Assembly: GCA_003216035.1 (NCBI GenBank)
Contig: QCJM01000014.1
Span: 1 to 34,766 of the forward strand
Length of the DNA stretch: 34,766 nt
Reading direction: 5' to 3'
Source of the DNA: Prochlorococcus sp. AG-409-B13
GTDB taxonomy: Bacteria > Cyanobacteriota > Cyanobacteriia > PCC-6307 > Cyanobiaceae
The notes under the pieces are model-generated. The model searched no databases. It saw nothing but the letters and a program-made list of their open reading frames with translations, and was not told the DNA's origin. Shown in pieces: positions 3,191 to 10,869 of this stretch. Each line of letters opens with the position of its first letter. The stretch's first letter is position 1. Made by a program: the position numbers and the translations under genes.

Positions 3191-4525
3191 ATGAGCGAAG
3201 ATGGAATCAATCAATTTAATACTTTTAGGTTGACTGATGAGTCTGCTACTGATTCATCTGTGGATGAAATAACAACAGAAAGTCCACAAGAAAAACCAGC
3301 TCTAAAGCCAGCGAATCAACTGTCTAGCGGGCTTTTGGGTTGGTATGCAGCATGTAGCAGCCAATCTCTAAAAGAAGGTAATCCTTACTTCTTTTCAATG
3401 TATAATGAGCCATTAATTTTATATAGAGATAAAGACTCTAATCCCAAGTGTATAAAAGATCTATGTCCACATAGGGGAGCATCATTTCGTGGCGGAAAAT
3501 TAAAGGATGGTCAACTTACTTGTCCATATCATGGAGCAAGGTTCGCTTCGTCAGGGGAGTGCTTAAATATTGATAGAATAACCTGCCAACATATTGTTGA
3601 CACTAACTATAAAAACTATGCAAAGAAGATACACTTATATCAATATCCATGCATAGAGTCAGATGGATATATTTATATATACTATACAGGTAAAGCAAGT
3701 ACAAACATACAAGACTTTGAGATAAAAACCTCACTAGATGATCTAAAGGCTAATTCCTATGGGTTTAAAATTCCTGAATATGAATATGAAGAAGTATGCG
3801 TCGATTTTAAATGCGACTGGGCAAGAATAATTGAAAATCACCTAGATATATTACATATATTCTGGGTACATGGAGAAACCATCCCAGACAAAGATGTCAG
3901 CAGAAAAGCAATCACTAGCTTTAATCAAACCATCACTAGAGACAAAAGAGAAATAGAAAGTAAATATAATCATAAACAAAAAGAAAAAGGTGAGTTTATA
4001 AGTATCAAATTTATTCCACCGGGGAGAATTATCATCTATAAAGGGACTCCAGAAACAGCCAGATATGTACAAGTATTAGACCATATACCACTTAACAATA
4101 ACAGAGCACGTGTAATTGTAAGACATTACAGGAAATTTCTTAAAAACAAATTCCTAACTAACATTATACTTTTCAAATATCTTCAGCAACGAATTTTCTA
4201 TAAAGTTTTCTCAGAAGACTACATGATATTAAAAACACAAACCTTTAACCAACAAATGGGATTCATAGAAAAAGATAACATCAAGTTGCTTGGTGAGGAT
4301 AAAATGGTTCAATATTATTGGGATTGGCTTAACGATGCATTAGCAAAAGATAAACCCTGGGAGCTGCATCCAATTACATCGAATACAAATACGGTGCATT
4401 TAGATATGCCAATGCTTTATCCTCCTGAGAATACAAGACTTTCAGATTTAAATGATAGAAACCTAATCATCCAACTAATTATTCGTTCACTAATTCCTAT
4501 TGCCTTATTATTATTAATATTTTAA
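3191..4525 (+). CDS. Rieske [2Fe-2S] oxygenase, PaO/LLS1-like
   Basis: This 444-residue protein has the layout of the pheophorbide a oxygenase/LLS1/PTC52 family. A low-complexity N-terminus (1-45) precedes a Rieske domain with ligands Cys92, His94, Cys111 and His114 (CPH and CPYHGARF). A mononuclear-iron domain follows, with NHLDILH and a second His (Asp219, His222, His227) and a likely third ligand in SEDYMILKTQ (Asp343). A hydrophobic C-terminal anchor spans about 425-444. Family members oxidise chlorophyll derivatives or related substrates at the membrane using ferredoxin; the substrate here is inferred only. The ATG at 3191 gives the expected length. It is divergent from the exporter operon. 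Confidence 0.85.
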   Translation: MSEDGINQFNTFRLTDESATDSSVDEITTESPQEKPALKPANQLSSGLLGWYAACSSQSLKEGNPYFFSMYNEPLILYRDKDSNPKCIKDLCPHRGASFRGGKLKDGQLTCPYHGARFASSGECLNIDRITCQHIVDTNYKNYAKKIHLYQYPCIESDGYIYIYYTGKASTNIQDFEIKTSLDDLKANSYGFKIPEYEYEEVCVDFKCDWARIIENHLDILHIFWVHGETIPDKDVSRKAITSFNQTITRDKREIESKYNHKQKEKGEFISIKFIPPGRIIIYKGTPETARYVQVLDHIPLNNNRARVIVRHYRKFLKNKFLTNIILFKYLQQRIFYKVFSEDYMILKTQTFNQQMGFIEKDNIKLLGEDKMVQYYWDWLNDALAKDKPWELHPITSNTNTVHLDMPMLYPPENTRLSDLNDRNLIIQLIIRSLIPIALLLLIF

Positions 4526-6057: not shown

Positions 6058-6789
6058 CTAAAGGTAATGTTTAATAAAATCTAATGGATCTCTCATATTT
6101 TGTGCATATAAAAGAAGGCTAATAGGTTTATATAAATAAATAATACTATTATCTTCCCCTAAAAAAAACGTAGCTCCTCTGCGAGTTAAATATTCATTGT
6201 TTGGGAAGTATATTTTTCTATTTCCTAGTATTTCTATCATATTTGTTAATCGTAAACTTGCCAGTTCAAAAGGTCTTAAAAAACCTTGTCCAAAGACATT
6301 ACTAAAAAGCACACTATTGAACCTAGGGATTATTTTAAAGTCTATGTAATCATCATCTTCATAAATATTTGATGATCTCAAATCACCTATGTATCCTCTG
6401 ATTACTTCTCTAAGTGTACCAGGAGAACCTATTCCCATGCACATTAGTAATAACCTAATATACTGTGGTAGATCGAAGACTATTCCATTCGAAAGTTCTA
6501 ACTGTGTATGAATAAGGTCATCCTTAACAACTTCCAAAATATCAGGAGAAATTCCTATGAATTTGCAAAATTTAGCTTTTGTTTCTTCTGTCCCAATGCC
6601 TATAATGGACAATTCAATATTTGCTTCTCTTAAAATTTTTATTTTGTTCACCAAATATTGAACATATTCAAAGCTGTCAAAGTCTCCTAAAGGACCAAGG
6701 AAAATTATAAGTCTTTTCTTTCCAGGCCTCATTGAGGGAATGTTTTGAATAAATTTTAATAATACTAATGGACATAATAATTTACACAT
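6058..6789 (-). CDS. AhpC/TSA-type thioredoxin-fold protein (PRXL2-like, no peroxidatic Cys)
   Basis: A 243-residue protein with motifs I associate with the AhpC-TSA_2/PRXL2 family: a beta-strand then FGPLGDFDSFEY-like sequence (here FLGPLGDFDSFEY), IGIGTEE, and LLMCMGIGSPGTLREVIRGY in the middle. Where redox-active members carry a CxxC, this protein has GDFDS, so a peroxidase role is doubtful. The first 19 residues may be an over-extended start; the Met before RPGKKRL is an alternative. It is transcribed away from ferritin 1 across a 193-base gap that holds a Fur-like palindrome, so the two genes could share regulation. Family assignment is moderate; function is inferred. Confidence 0.6.
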   Translation of the reverse strand: MCKLLCPLVLLKFIQNIPSMRPGKKRLIIFLGPLGDFDSFEYVQYLVNKIKILREANIELSIIGIGTEETKAKFCKFIGISPDILEVVKDDLIHTQLELSNGIVFDLPQYIRLLLMCMGIGSPGTLREVIRGYIGDLRSSNIYEDDDYIDFKIIPRFNSVLFSNVFGQGFLRPFELASLRLTNMIEILGNRKIYFPNNEYLTRRGATFFLGEDNSIIYLYKPISLLLYAQNMRDPLDFIKHYL

Positions 6790-6982: not shown

Positions 6983-7504
6983 ATGCAAGATCTAGCTAAA
7001 GCTATAAACAATCACCTGTCATGTGAATTCCAGGCAAGTCATACGTATCTTGCTATGTCAATTTGGTTACGTGAAAAAGATCTCGCTGGATTCTCAACTT
7101 ATATGCAAAGTAAAAGTCAAGAAGAAAGGGGTCATGCAGATAGGCTAATAGCATATTTGGTTGATAGCGATGAGCAGGTAGAGTTGCCAAGCGTAGACGC
7201 ACCACAAAGAAGCTGGACATCAACACAAACTCTGTTTGATCAAGTCTATGAAATGGAACAAGCGGTTACTGCTTCTATAAATCGTATTTATTCTATTGCC
7301 GAGCAAGCTGGGGAAAGGAGTGCAACAGCAATGCTGGATTGGTTTGTTGCTGAACAGCTTCAGGAAGAAGCAGAAGCTAGATTTGTACGTAAAAGATTAA
7401 GGTTAGCTGGAGATAATAGTGCTGCATTACTTCTTTTAGACCAACAGTTTCTTGATGGAACAGCATTATCGACTGTAAAAGGAAAACCTAGTGCATTAGC
7501 CTGA
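6983..7504 (+). CDS. ferritin 1 (complete ferroxidase site)
   Basis: A 173-residue four-helix-bundle ferritin that oxidises Fe(II) and stores Fe(III) in a 24-subunit cage. By alignment to E. coli FtnA the ligands are present: Glu15, Glu48 and His51 (EERGH), Glu92 (EMEQ), Gln125 and Glu128 (AEQLQEE), plus the nearby Tyr22. The length is normal for bacterial non-haem ferritins. The ATG at 6983 begins directly before the first helix. It lies downstream of the Fur-like palindrome and upstream of the Crp/NtcA-type regulator gene (257-base gap). This copy looks fully active, in contrast with ferritin 2 at 8665-9231. Confidence 0.93.
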   Translation: MQDLAKAINNHLSCEFQASHTYLAMSIWLREKDLAGFSTYMQSKSQEERGHADRLIAYLVDSDEQVELPSVDAPQRSWTSTQTLFDQVYEMEQAVTASINRIYSIAEQAGERSATAMLDWFVAEQLQEEAEARFVRKRLRLAGDNSAALLLLDQQFLDGTALSTVKGKPSALA

Positions 7505-7665: not shown

Positions 7666-7770
7666 CTCGCAAAAAGCTTTTGCTATTGAGAATCGCTTGC
7701 AAAAAGCAGCCCTATGGGGTTAGGTTGAGAAGAGTTCGCAAAAAGCTTCTTTTTTTTCGCAATGAGCTTC
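7666..7770 (+). repeat. four in-phase copies of a GCAAAAAGC repeat leading into the regulator start
   Basis: GCAAAAAGC occurs at 7669, 7699 and 7738, and a variant GCAATGAGC at 7759. Spacings are 30, 39 and 21 bases, all multiples of three, and all copies are in frame with the regulator ATG at 7762. The last two copies match over 15 bases (TTCGCAAAAAGCTTC against TTCGCAATGAGCTTC, 13 of 15), so the start codon sits inside the fourth copy. In-frame TGA stops at 7687 and 7726 prevent one long upstream frame. Confidence 0.7.
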
Positions 7771-8355
7771 AGATTTTTACCTGATACCCCTGTTGCAGCA
7801 GTACGTGTGCCCACTGGCCAGTCAGTGTTGATAGACCCATCTTCTAGATCAGGCAGTACCTGCCTAGAAGTAATTGAAGGTGTTGCACGTGTATATTGCC
7901 CCTGCGAAGAAACCGAAGGCATGACTCTCGCGTTTCTTCAAGAGGGTGATCAATTACGAACTGATCGCCTTTGCAGTGAAGGAGTTTGCCTGGAAGCTCT
8001 GACTCCTGTTTGCTTTCGGAGTGATGCGGAAGTTACAGACTCTAATGGTTTTGACGCAGTTAACGAATGGACATTGCAATTGCTGAGAATTCGACATTTA
8101 GGAAGTGCTGAGCAAAGGTTGCAAGCCCTATTGGCACTTTTAGTAAATAGGTTGGGGAGAAGATGTGGAGATTGGTGTCAACTTCCATTTAGGCTTACGC
8201 ATGAAAGGATTGGCGAATTAATTGGTTCAACTCGTGTTACTTCTACGCGATTAATATCTAGATTACGAACTGCAGATCTCCTACATGTTCCTCCGGGTGA
8301 ACCTACTCTTAAATTGTCCCCTAATTTTATTGAGTCAGCTCCTCTAGCAGCCTGA
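7762..8355 (+). CDS. Crp/NtcA-family transcriptional regulator, cysteine-rich
   Basis: A 197-residue regulator with a beta-rich sensor domain (1-95), a dimerisation helix (about 100-130) and a C-terminal HTH (145-175). The recognition helix GSTRVTSTRL resembles NtcA (RVTxTR) more than E. coli CRP (RETxGR). The cAMP phosphate cassette (GE...RSA) is not visible, so it is probably not a cAMP sensor. It has eight Cys (34, 46, 48, 71, 76, 84, 135, 139), including a CPC pair, which could bind iron, an Fe-S cluster or act in redox sensing (inference). It sits between two ferritins; the following small gene starts 7 bases after it. Confidence 0.85.
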   Translation: MSFRFLPDTPVAAVRVPTGQSVLIDPSSRSGSTCLEVIEGVARVYCPCEETEGMTLAFLQEGDQLRTDRLCSEGVCLEALTPVCFRSDAEVTDSNGFDAVNEWTLQLLRIRHLGSAEQRLQALLALLVNRLGRRCGDWCQLPFRLTHERIGELIGSTRVTSTRLISRLRTADLLHVPPGEPTLKLSPNFIESAPLAA

Positions 8356-8361
8356 AAAAGA

Positions 8362-8646
8362 ATGAGCACACAAATACACTTTTCAGATTCTTTGGTTGGA
8401 AGTCTTTGTAGAGAAGTAGACACCATTAGAAACAGACACTCTTATATAAATAGACAGTTAAGCCTTTGCATAGATGGCACACTATTAATAAGACTAGAGA
8501 ATGAAAAAAATACTCTTATAAATAGGCAGAAAGAAATTCTAATTATAGCAAAGTCAATTAATATAAATCTTCATCAAGACAATATTTCTGTTAAATTACT
8601 AATAGAGATGTCTCAGAGATCATTAAATACATCAAATAAAAATTAA
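8362..8646 (+). CDS. small helical protein, probably co-transcribed with the regulator
   Basis: A 94-residue protein with no recognised family. Most of it looks like two amphipathic helices, with NRHSYINRQLSL and NEKNTLINRQKEIL repeating a similar N-R-x-hydrophobic pattern, so a helical hairpin or coiled coil is likely. There is no signal peptide or membrane segment. It starts 7 bases after the regulator stop, so the two are probably one transcript, and it converges on ferritin 2 with an 18-base gap. Context suggests a link to iron or redox control, but nothing in the sequence proves it. Confidence 0.6.
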   Translation: MSTQIHFSDSLVGSLCREVDTIRNRHSYINRQLSLCIDGTLLIRLENEKNTLINRQKEILIIAKSININLHQDNISVKLLIEMSQRSLNTSNKN

Positions 8647-8664: not shown

Positions 8665-9231
8665 TTATTTCTGTAAATTACCGCCTCTTAACTCACCATC
8701 TATAATCAACATTGCTGAAGGATTATTCTGAGCGAACCTTACCCGACCTAAAAGATATGCAAACTCATCTTCAGAATTAACCTGAGCTTCTATTGTTGGG
8801 TCAAGAAAAACAGTTGTTCGAGTATCAGAGGAACGTTCGGCCATTGAATAGAGCTGATGCAATGAAGATGTTACATCTGCTTCCATTTGGAAAGAGACTG
8901 CAAGGATTTCCTCTGGTGAATCAAAATTCTGTCTTGGTGAGGGTACATCTTGGAGAACTACATTTTGACCTCGAGCAATAAGGTATTCAGCGAATTTTGA
9001 AGCATGTTCATGCTCGCTAAGGCATTCTTGCTTGAAGAATTCTGAAAAACCTCTTAGTTCCCTTTCTGCGAACCAAATTGATATAGCGAAATAAAATGCA
9101 CTAGCATTTCTCTCCATGGTCAAATGCTGATGAAGCGATTCAACTAAACCTGCCTCCATCGGTTGGGCCATTGCTCGACCTGATGGACCAACTGCAACGT
9201 TGAATGATGAATTGGTAGAAATCGCTGTCAT
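8665..9231 (-). CDS. ferritin 2 with altered ferroxidase ligand
   Basis: A 188-residue ferritin with an N-terminal extension of about 25 residues. Aligned to FtnA, it keeps Glu40, Glu73 and His76 (in SEHEH), Glu117 (QMEADV), Tyr47 and Gln150, but the residue matching FtnA Glu130 is Ser153, with Glu one position later. The helix before it also differs: FLDPTIEAQ replaces the usual FxxWFVxEQ type. The third iron site or turnover may therefore differ from ferritin 1, or the subunits may form mixed cages (inference). It is convergent with the regulator's downstream gene and is preceded by a TGTR-N8-YACA site at 9285. Confidence 0.88.
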   Translation of the reverse strand: MTAISTNSSFNVAVGPSGRAMAQPMEAGLVESLHQHLTMERNASAFYFAISIWFAERELRGFSEFFKQECLSEHEHASKFAEYLIARGQNVVLQDVPSPRQNFDSPEEILAVSFQMEADVTSSLHQLYSMAERSSDTRTTVFLDPTIEAQVNSEDEFAYLLGRVRFAQNNPSAMLIIDGELRGGNLQK

Positions 9232-9284: not shown

Positions 9285-9300
9285 TGTGACAAATGATACA
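9285..9300. promoter_or_regulatory. candidate Crp/NtcA-type site upstream of ferritin 2
   Basis: TGTGACAAATGATACA fits TGTR-N8-YACA and lies 54 bases before the ferritin 2 start. It matches the core of the palindrome at 10849-10864 at 12 of 16 positions. The NtcA consensus is GTA-N8-TAC, one mismatch away. The motif alone is not rare in AT-rich DNA, so the call rests on position and similarity. Confidence 0.4.
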
Positions 9301-9391: not shown

Positions 9392-9526
9392 ATGATTGCT
9401 CCAATAGGAAAAGATACTAGCGAAAATTCTCTTCGGAGAGGCCCAGAAATGAGTAAGAAAAAGCGTTGCAAAAGACAAAAATGCTCAAATTGGAAAGGTG
9501 GCAAATGCCAATGTGGTAAAAAATAA
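9392..9526 (+). CDS. 44-residue Cys/Lys-rich small protein
   Basis: An ATG frame of 44 codons ends in TAA at 9524-9526. A second Met at residue 20 could be the true start, giving a 25-residue product. The C-terminal half is very basic and carries four cysteines in the pattern CKRQKC then CQC after a WKGG turn (residues 26, 31, 40, 42), suggesting a tiny metal-binding or nucleic-acid-binding knuckle. It sits between ferritin 2 and the FutC-like gene, so a metal-related role is possible. The opposite-strand frame here looks like a shadow. Family unknown to me; its reality rests on the ordered Cys pattern. Confidence 0.5.
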   Translation: MIAPIGKDTSENSLRRGPEMSKKKRCKRQKCSNWKGGKCQCGKK

Positions 9527-9580: not shown

Positions 9581-10639
9581 TCAAAATTCAAATTTAAAAG
9601 ATCCAGGAAAAAGTATTCCAGTTTTACCTTGCCTAAAGCCTATACAACATTTTTCTCCAGGACTAGGGGGGTTAAGTATAGGGTGCCATACTCTAACAAT
9701 ATGAGAATTAAGTTTAACCCTAATCAACCAATGACTACCTAAGAATTCTCTTCCTTGTATTGTGCCATTTCCGAATTCATCAGGAGTGATCTCAAGGGAA
9801 TACTCATCAAGCATTAACAACATTGAATCAGAGATTTCGAAAGAATTAGGTCTAGGTATTTTTCCAACGGGTGTTATTAAATAGTCTTGGTCATTGATAA
9901 CAGGAAGAACATTACGTTGAAGGACAAAACGGCCAACAAAAGGAGTAGCTGGATCATCTACTAAATCACTAGGAGAGGAACATTGATGCAGTTGGCCTTG
10001 CTTCATAACAGCAACACGATCACAAATAGCCAAAGCCTCTTGAGGATCATGAGTCACTAAGAGGCCACTGGCAGAACAAGAGTTCAAAACACTAGATAAT
10101 TCACTCCTTAAAAGTAGACGTACTTCAACATCAAGATTAGAGAAAGGTTCATCTAATACAACTAAAGAACTTCCAGGGGCTAGTGCACGAGCCAAAGCTA
10201 AACGTTGCCTTTGTCCACCAGACAATTCATGAGGATATCTACTACGGAGTTCAGTTAAACCAAGCAATTCAAGCAACCACCTAGCTCTACTTTTATCCAT
10301 TCCATTTTTTAGGCCAAAGCAAACATTACGCCAAGCATCAAGATGAGGAAATAGTGCATAATCTTGAAAAACCATGCCAATACCTCGCCTTTCTGGGGGT
10401 AAAGAGTAATTGGGAGTAGCTATTATTTGATTGTTAAGTGCAATTTCACCTTTGCAAGGCTTCTCAAAACCAGCAATTAAACGCAGTAAAGTTGTTTTAC
10501 CGCAACCAGAAGGACCAAGTAATCCGACAAGTTCGCCTTTTTTTAGGTTTAAATTAATTGACTCCAAAGACCAGCCATTTTTAAGTTGATGACCATAATG
10601 ATGCCAAAGGCCCTTGATCTGTAGATGTGTATTATTCAA
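9581..10639 (-). CDS. futC: Fe(III) ABC importer ATP-binding protein, FutC/FbpC-like
   Basis: A 352-residue importer ATPase of the COG3842 group. Motifs are Walker A GPSGCGKTT (42-50), Q-loop VFQDYALFPH, signature LSGGQRQRLALARAL, Walker B VVLDEPFSNLD and H-loop VTHD. A C-terminal regulatory domain of about 110 residues, TOBE-like, follows. The FutC/FbpC label rests on overall similarity and the neighbouring ferritins; polyamine or sulfate importer ATPases are the main alternatives. No permease or binding protein is adjacent, as in cyanobacteria where fut genes are scattered. Two palindromes lie about 200 bases upstream in the long gap before it. It converges on the small Cys/Lys-rich gene. 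Confidence 0.8.
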   Translation of the reverse strand: MNNTHLQIKGLWHHYGHQLKNGWSLESINLNLKKGELVGLLGPSGCGKTTLLRLIAGFEKPCKGEIALNNQIIATPNYSLPPERRGIGMVFQDYALFPHLDAWRNVCFGLKNGMDKSRARWLLELLGLTELRSRYPHELSGGQRQRLALARALAPGSSLVVLDEPFSNLDVEVRLLLRSELSSVLNSCSASGLLVTHDPQEALAICDRVAVMKQGQLHQCSSPSDLVDDPATPFVGRFVLQRNVLPVINDQDYLITPVGKIPRPNSFEISDSMLLMLDEYSLEITPDEFGNGTIQGREFLGSHWLIRVKLNSHIVRVWHPILNPPSPGEKCCIGFRQGKTGILFPGSFKFEF

Positions 10640-10843: not shown

Positions 10844-10869
10844 CTAGGTGTAACATATGTCACACCTAG
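10844..10869. promoter_or_regulatory. 26-base near-perfect palindrome, Crp/NtcA-type operator candidate
   Basis: Starting CTAGGTGT and ending ACACCTAG, the 26 bases are an inverted repeat with a single mismatched pair. The core TGTAACATATGTCACA fits both TGTNA-N6-TNACA (Crp/Fnr) and GTA-N8-TAC with one mismatch (NtcA). It lies in the 447-base gap between the divergent FutC-like gene and VTT gene, 205 bases from the former. The regulator at 7762-8355 is a natural candidate ligand (inference). Confidence 0.55.

Follow-up and report, generated by a model that had tools for sequence, protein, structure and literature searches.

A four-cysteine Crp/Fnr-type regulator beside ferritin genes, a probable metal sensor of picocyanobacteria

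Iron is often limiting for Prochlorococcus and Synechococcus, whose genomes retain few regulators, and the literature searched gave no account of how the unusual ferritin SynFtn is controlled. In a 34,766-nucleotide stretch of the Prochlorococcus sp. AG-409-B13 genome (contig QCJM01000014.1; hereafter the window), ferritin genes lie on either side of a gene for a Crp-type regulator, as the initial annotation had claimed. What does this protein sense, and which genes does it control? The protein is probably a metal or iron-sulfur sensor not described before, most likely one that responds to an Fe-S cluster or to iron and regulates iron storage and uptake; the metal, the DNA binding and the sign of the regulation we infer. 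If true, this would be a new way of placing a metal centre in the Crp fold. No description of the regulator was found in the literature searched, which was open-access. Transcriptome tables have probably listed the gene before, and Thompson et al. are said to have studied the iron transcriptome of Prochlorococcus in 2011.

A Crp-type protein with a divergent sensor domain

The host genome is picocyanobacterial (1.45 Mb, 72% complete), and the closest relatives of the protein come from Prochlorococcus single-cell genomes. Its start, MSFRFLP, is kept in orthologues at 75-89% identity. Translation of the open reading frame confirmed the eight cysteines of the initial annotation, at residues 34, 46, 48, 71, 76, 84, 135 and 139, with a CPC pair at 46-48. 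The gene and the parts of it discussed below are as follows.

7762..8355, + strand: four-cysteine Crp-type regulator gene, 197 codons plus stop, 197 aa
7897..7905, + strand: codons of C46-P47-C48, first half of the four-cysteine set, invariant in 129/129 four-cysteine members
7972..7989, + strand: codons of C71-x4-C76, second half of the set (from conservation), at the place of the phosphate-binding cassette (from a hand alignment to CRP/NtcA)
8191..8265, + strand: helix-turn-helix, codons of residues 144-168, with an NtcA-like recognition helix STRVTSTRLISRL (Pfam, comparison with the genome's own NtcA)

Pfam profiles matched the C-terminal helix-turn-helix only. Both HTH_Crp_2 (PF13545; E 3.7e-8, 33.6 bits against a cut-off of 27) and Crp (PF00325; E 3.8e-5, 23.8 bits against a cut-off of 21) passed their thresholds, which identifies a Crp-type helix-turn-helix. 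The likeness of the recognition helix to NtcA was borne out as well, the DNA-reading helix sharing 49% identity over 39 residues with the NtcA of the same genome. The sensor side behaved differently. No cyclic-nucleotide domain was detected in the regulator with Pfam at E<=1, in agreement with the cAMP cassette having been reported as not visible. The sensor domain alone gave no Pfam match at E<=10 and no Crp-type PDB chain by sequence, and PF00027 was absent at E<=10 from all 14 sensor domains searched. The same profile found NtcA (5e-16) and a PtrA-like protein (5e-6) of this genome; the NtcA match indicates that the method is able to detect such domains. NCBIfam models matched in the HTH region only, all far under their cut-offs: PtrA at 41.6 of 300 bits, NtcA at 30.1 of 244.95, FNR at 21.5 of 228 and CRP at 13.8 of 266. 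The N-terminal cysteine cluster that binds [4Fe-4S] in E. coli-type FNR was not found, the first cysteine of the regulator being the variable residue 34.

Structure prediction, which had been proposed as a check, returned a Crp/NtcA-like fold. The AlphaFold model (19-row alignment; pLDDT 85.7, pTM 0.83) has a beta-barrel sensor followed by a long dimer helix, as in the Crp/Fnr superfamily, and its best PDB fold matches in Foldseek were NtcA (E 9e-12), then CprK and CRP. A weak hmmsearch match to 1i6x (E 0.013) anchors residue 37 of the query to residue 42 of CRP. The hand alignment with CRP puts C46 and C48 in the beta4-beta5 flap, while C71 and C76 map to a shortened phosphate-binding cassette and the stretch that follows it. 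In CRP, this flap and this cassette surround the cAMP site, and the four sulfurs are predicted to lie close in space. A hand alignment with NtcA (automatic alignments span the HTH region only) places E73, D98 and W103 at the positions of NtcA R88, R129 and E134, so that, judging from sequence, the 2-oxoglutarate residues of NtcA appear to be replaced. We file the protein as a variant of the Crp/Fnr superfamily distinct from FNR, CRP, NtcA and PtrA.

Conservation of the cysteines and distribution of the regulator

Residues were read at the eight cysteine positions in 162 distinct full-length homologues. C46, C48, C71 and C76 behave as an all-or-none set: all four occur in 129 of the 162 homologues and none in 31, while the two partial cases are a protein with two of the cysteines from a 62% complete MAG and a distant protein with one. 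These counts refer to related sequences rather than independent events, but the set hardly ever loses just one of its members. Among the 129 four-cysteine members, the remaining positions hold cysteine less strictly (C34 in 103, C84 in 82, C135 in 125 and C139 in 124), and all four drift in the 16 members that have diverged furthest (from 53% identity upward). In those 16 proteins, 12 sensor-domain residues are invariant (G40, R43, C46, C48, A57, F58, D63, C71, C76, E78, A79 and T81), four of which are the cysteines of the set. The alignment of homologues proposed as a check on the eight cysteines thus upheld C46, C48, C71 and C76 and showed C34, C84, C135 and C139 to vary. Homologues lacking the cysteines form separate clades in the tree, the deepest forks of which are moderately supported. 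In many loci, cysteine-less Crp-type paralogues (L139:8802-9584 on the - strand, L143, L148 and others) adjoin a ferric-type ABC ATPase gene; these are possibly a second iron regulator with a different signal.

The regulator occurs in nearly all marine and freshwater picocyanobacteria. A match was retrieved in 299 out of 300 genomes of the picocyanobacterial family, some of them covering only the HTH of NtcA or PtrA, and most genomes carry full-length orthologues. Beyond the family, only short or weak matches turned up in a single phylum-wide sample of 386 genomes, the one contig-level scan covering its best 80 loci, and no phage or viral copies were found. Some freshwater Synechococcus/Cyanobium hold two near-identical copies (L050, L051; G089, G234, G197, G285); in BO 8801 (L050/L051), one lies by a ferritin gene and the other by FutA/FutB. 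Such near-identical repeats probably break assemblies. An apparent loss of the regulator in large freshwater genomes (genus g6) is best read as breaks at contig edges instead, and these genomes were therefore omitted from the co-absence count below. Four genomes (G005, G256, G174 and G273) have cut copies that run out at a contig start, close to one, or beside FTN2, and three more (G216, G225 and G291), in which no fragment was seen, were classed with them by analogy.

Iron genes and DNA sites around the regulator

The neighbourhood in the window includes the following genes.

6983..7504, + strand: ferritin FTN1, 5' of the regulator, variable association
8362..8646, + strand: small gene directly 3' of the regulator, 94 aa, 32-44% identity in many loci, no family above cut-off
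8665..9231, - strand: ferritin FTN2, orthologue of SynFtn of Synechococcus CC9311 (PDB 7pf7/5ouw, E 9e-64 to 4e-63; synteny)
9581..10639, - strand: ABC transporter ATP-binding protein, ferric/phosphonate type, a conserved neighbour and probably FutC-like

The order regulator, small gene and convergent FTN2 recurs in most Prochlorococcus and many Synechococcus/Cyanobium loci, followed in Prochlorococcus by the ferric/phosphonate-type ABC ATPase. Other Synechococcus copies adjoin FutA (PDB 8c4y, E 3e-100) and a binding-protein-dependent permease, FutB. A Fur-family gene also stands beside the regulator in WH 5701, and FutA, the regulator and FTN2 lie inside about 2.6 kb in one genome (G180). Three further features of the region were recorded: an AhpC/TSA-like antioxidant protein beside FTN1 (6058-6789, - strand; PF13911, E 2.7e-6), kept in many Prochlorococcus loci; a Rieske oxygenase of the pheophorbide a oxygenase/VanA type (3191-4525, + strand), a conserved neighbour in Prochlorococcus; and a cysteine-rich open reading frame of 44 residues divergent from FTN2 (9392-9526, + strand; MIAPIGKDTSENSLRRGPEMSKKKRCKRQKCSNWKGGKCQCGKK), with similar Lys/Cys-rich coding sequence in other loci.

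The link to FTN2 extends to shared absence. Eleven near-complete genomes lack the regulator, their best matches being only HTH-type or other Crp-type proteins, and an FTN2 match (E<=0.001) was found in 0/11 of them; as a positive control, the same query matched 177 out of 223 near-complete genomes. The 11 absences are spread over five genera, mostly two marine Synechococcus-like genera, and thus represent few independent losses. Several genomes hold the regulator without FTN2 (e.g. G061, G083 and G194), which indicates that FTN2 is not its sole target. This one-way co-absence suggests that the ferritin needs the regulator and that the regulator has other work too. Being near-universal, equipped with a fixed four-cysteine sensor and absent only where the SynFtn-type ferritin is absent as well, the protein is a direct candidate for the control of SynFtn. 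A simple story in which it replaces SufR was rejected, most tested genomes holding both; a SufR match was missing in G000 (72% complete), G094, G010 and G055, and most other tested picocyanobacteria have SufR.

Four candidate sites were located in the intergenic DNA of the window.

7686..7702, + strand: near-invariant promoter box TTGAGAATCGCTTGCAA, Fur-like, overlapping a -35-like TTGCAA; 0.04 matches expected in the window
7725..7741, + strand: palindrome TTGMGA-N5-TCKCAA just 3' of a -10-like element, Fur-like or autoregulatory
9285..9300, - strand: Crp/NtcA-type palindrome TGTATCATTTGTCACA upstream of FTN2
10849..10864, + strand: second Crp/NtcA-type palindrome TGTAACATATGTCACA, between the ABC ATPase gene and a VTT-domain gene

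The palindrome TGTRNC-N4-GNYACA lies 5' of FTN2 in many Prochlorococcus. Scanning within 160 bp of the start, we found it with at most one mismatch in 24 out of 61 distinct FTN2 upstream sequences (ten of them perfect), compared to 0.7% of Markov controls, and the window holds two occurrences where 0.07 are expected. Its likeness to NtcA's GTA-N8-TAC is expected, since the recognition helix is shared; given this likeness, the site could also be bound by NtcA or by a different Crp-type protein. The site is degenerate in several regulator-bearing lineages (AG-402-like Prochlorococcus and several Cyanobium). It overlaps a -10-like TATCAT, a placement that, at a guess, would suit repression. The promoter of the regulator itself carries two TTGMGA-N5-TYKCAA boxes, one of them near-invariant across the family, that score 13/18 against a Fur-type consensus, and control of the gene by Fur is plausible. 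A further Fur-like box, ATTGAGATTGATTTTCATT, lies between FTN2 and the divergent small open reading frame and scores 15/18. Fur boxes at futA were set aside because the scan was unreliable there, its matches not beginning at the protein start, and an automatic sigma-70 scan returned sites no more numerous than in shuffled sequence.

Proposed mechanism, alternatives and known relatives

Crp/Fnr members are known to swap the ligand of their sensor domain, which may be cAMP, 2-oxoglutarate, heme or an Fe-S cluster. Given such a family, an all-or-none set of four cysteines in the signal-receiving part and a neighbourhood of iron genes, a metal centre is the best explanation: on balance, we consider it probable, if only just, that the protein is a Crp/Fnr switch with a four-cysteine metal centre acting on the SynFtn-type ferritin and iron-uptake genes. 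It would be a one-component transcription factor whose ligand-binding barrel has been rebuilt around C46, C48, C71 and C76. Together, these residues probably coordinate a single metal centre in each subunit, at or close to the position of cAMP in CRP; an Fe-S cluster or iron is the likeliest centre. As the centre is loaded or lost, the barrel would shift against the long dimer helix, and DNA binding by the NtcA-like helix would thereby be switched. Likely targets would be the SynFtn-type ferritin gene, through the TGTRNC-N4-GNYACA palindrome, and iron-uptake genes, and iron storage would then follow Fe/Fe-S status or oxidative and copper damage. We infer that the four cysteines meet in space, and likewise which metal is bound, which protein recognises the palindrome and whether regulation is positive or negative. 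The Crp-type metal or Fe-S sensor proposed in the initial annotation is therefore supported in part, by the inheritance of the four cysteines as a block, the lack of a cAMP domain in the sequence and the strong linkage to iron genes.

An Fe-S cluster is favoured because of the iron context and because SynFtn of CC9311 was reported to rise under elevated copper (PMC7762939), which damages such clusters. The narrower reading, in which all four ligands of an Fe-S sensor lie inside the barrel where the cyclic-nucleotide cassette would otherwise be and the protein governs iron storage in Prochlorococcus and Synechococcus, is put forward as tentative, a fair way short of probable. The same copper induction (PMC7762939) would suit a Cu(I) sensor, whose CPC and C-x4-C thiolates would bind Cu(I) and turn on SynFtn and other stress genes under excess copper. 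Four thiolates with a CPC pair fit that metal, yet the known neighbours are Fur genes and genes of iron storage and uptake, among which no copper gene was seen, and we rate this sensor as distinctly unlikely. Since copper also destroys Fe-S clusters, its inducing effect cannot separate the two.

The dullest alternative, unlikely but the least so of those weighed against a sensory metal centre, is a structural zinc that stiffens the barrel, the signal coming instead from a different ligand, from a partner protein or from regulator levels that Fur sets. Cys4 sites often hold zinc, and with Fur-like boxes in its promoter, the regulator may carry the iron signal in its amount. However, the four cysteines occupy the place at which the signal is bound in sister regulators, and there are sister clades that lack them. 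A metal-free thiol-disulfide switch resembling CprK, suggested by the pairing of the cysteines and by CprK being among the best fold matches, seems improbable to us: a disulfide needs two cysteines, yet four are kept all-or-none. Least credible, and very improbable, is an ordinary NtcA-like or cAMP-responsive regulator with incidental cysteines. Its HTH and fold are indeed closest to NtcA, but the profile search found no cyclic-nucleotide domain, the hand alignment places E73, D98 and W103 at the NtcA ligand positions, the cut-offs for NtcA, PtrA, CRP and FNR are far from reached, and the four cysteines are among the most conserved residues.

Compared with known systems, the regulator that we favour as a metal-centre switch resembles NtcA in fold, recognition helix and, probably, a GTA-N8-TAC-like DNA site. 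NtcA, however, has a recognisable cyclic-nucleotide-type domain and 2-oxoglutarate residues; by alignment, the regulator appears to lack both and has the four cysteines instead. PtrA, from the same organisms, is its closest NCBIfam model by score, through the HTH, but the regulator stays far under the cut-off and the four-cysteine set is missing from this genome's own PtrA-like protein. With FNR, it shares the superfamily and, as proposed, control of a Crp-type dimer through a metal centre. The ligands of E. coli-type FNR are an N-terminal cysteine cluster plus one barrel cysteine, and those of the Bacillus type a C-terminal cluster plus Asp, whereas the four cysteines of the regulator are all mid-barrel and none precedes residue 34. 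CprK matches in fold and has known redox-active cysteines, but it binds a chlorinated aromatic and its cysteines lie elsewhere. CooA, a weak sequence match, is also a Crp-type protein sensing through a metal cofactor, in its case heme with other ligands. A 2026 review of cyanobacterial redox regulators names SufR and ChlR as Fe-S sensors, and looking in it for 'Crp' gave no hits (PMC13421787). The proposed sensing principle would be common to these two cyanobacterial Fe-S regulators and to the regulator described here, while the protein families differ.
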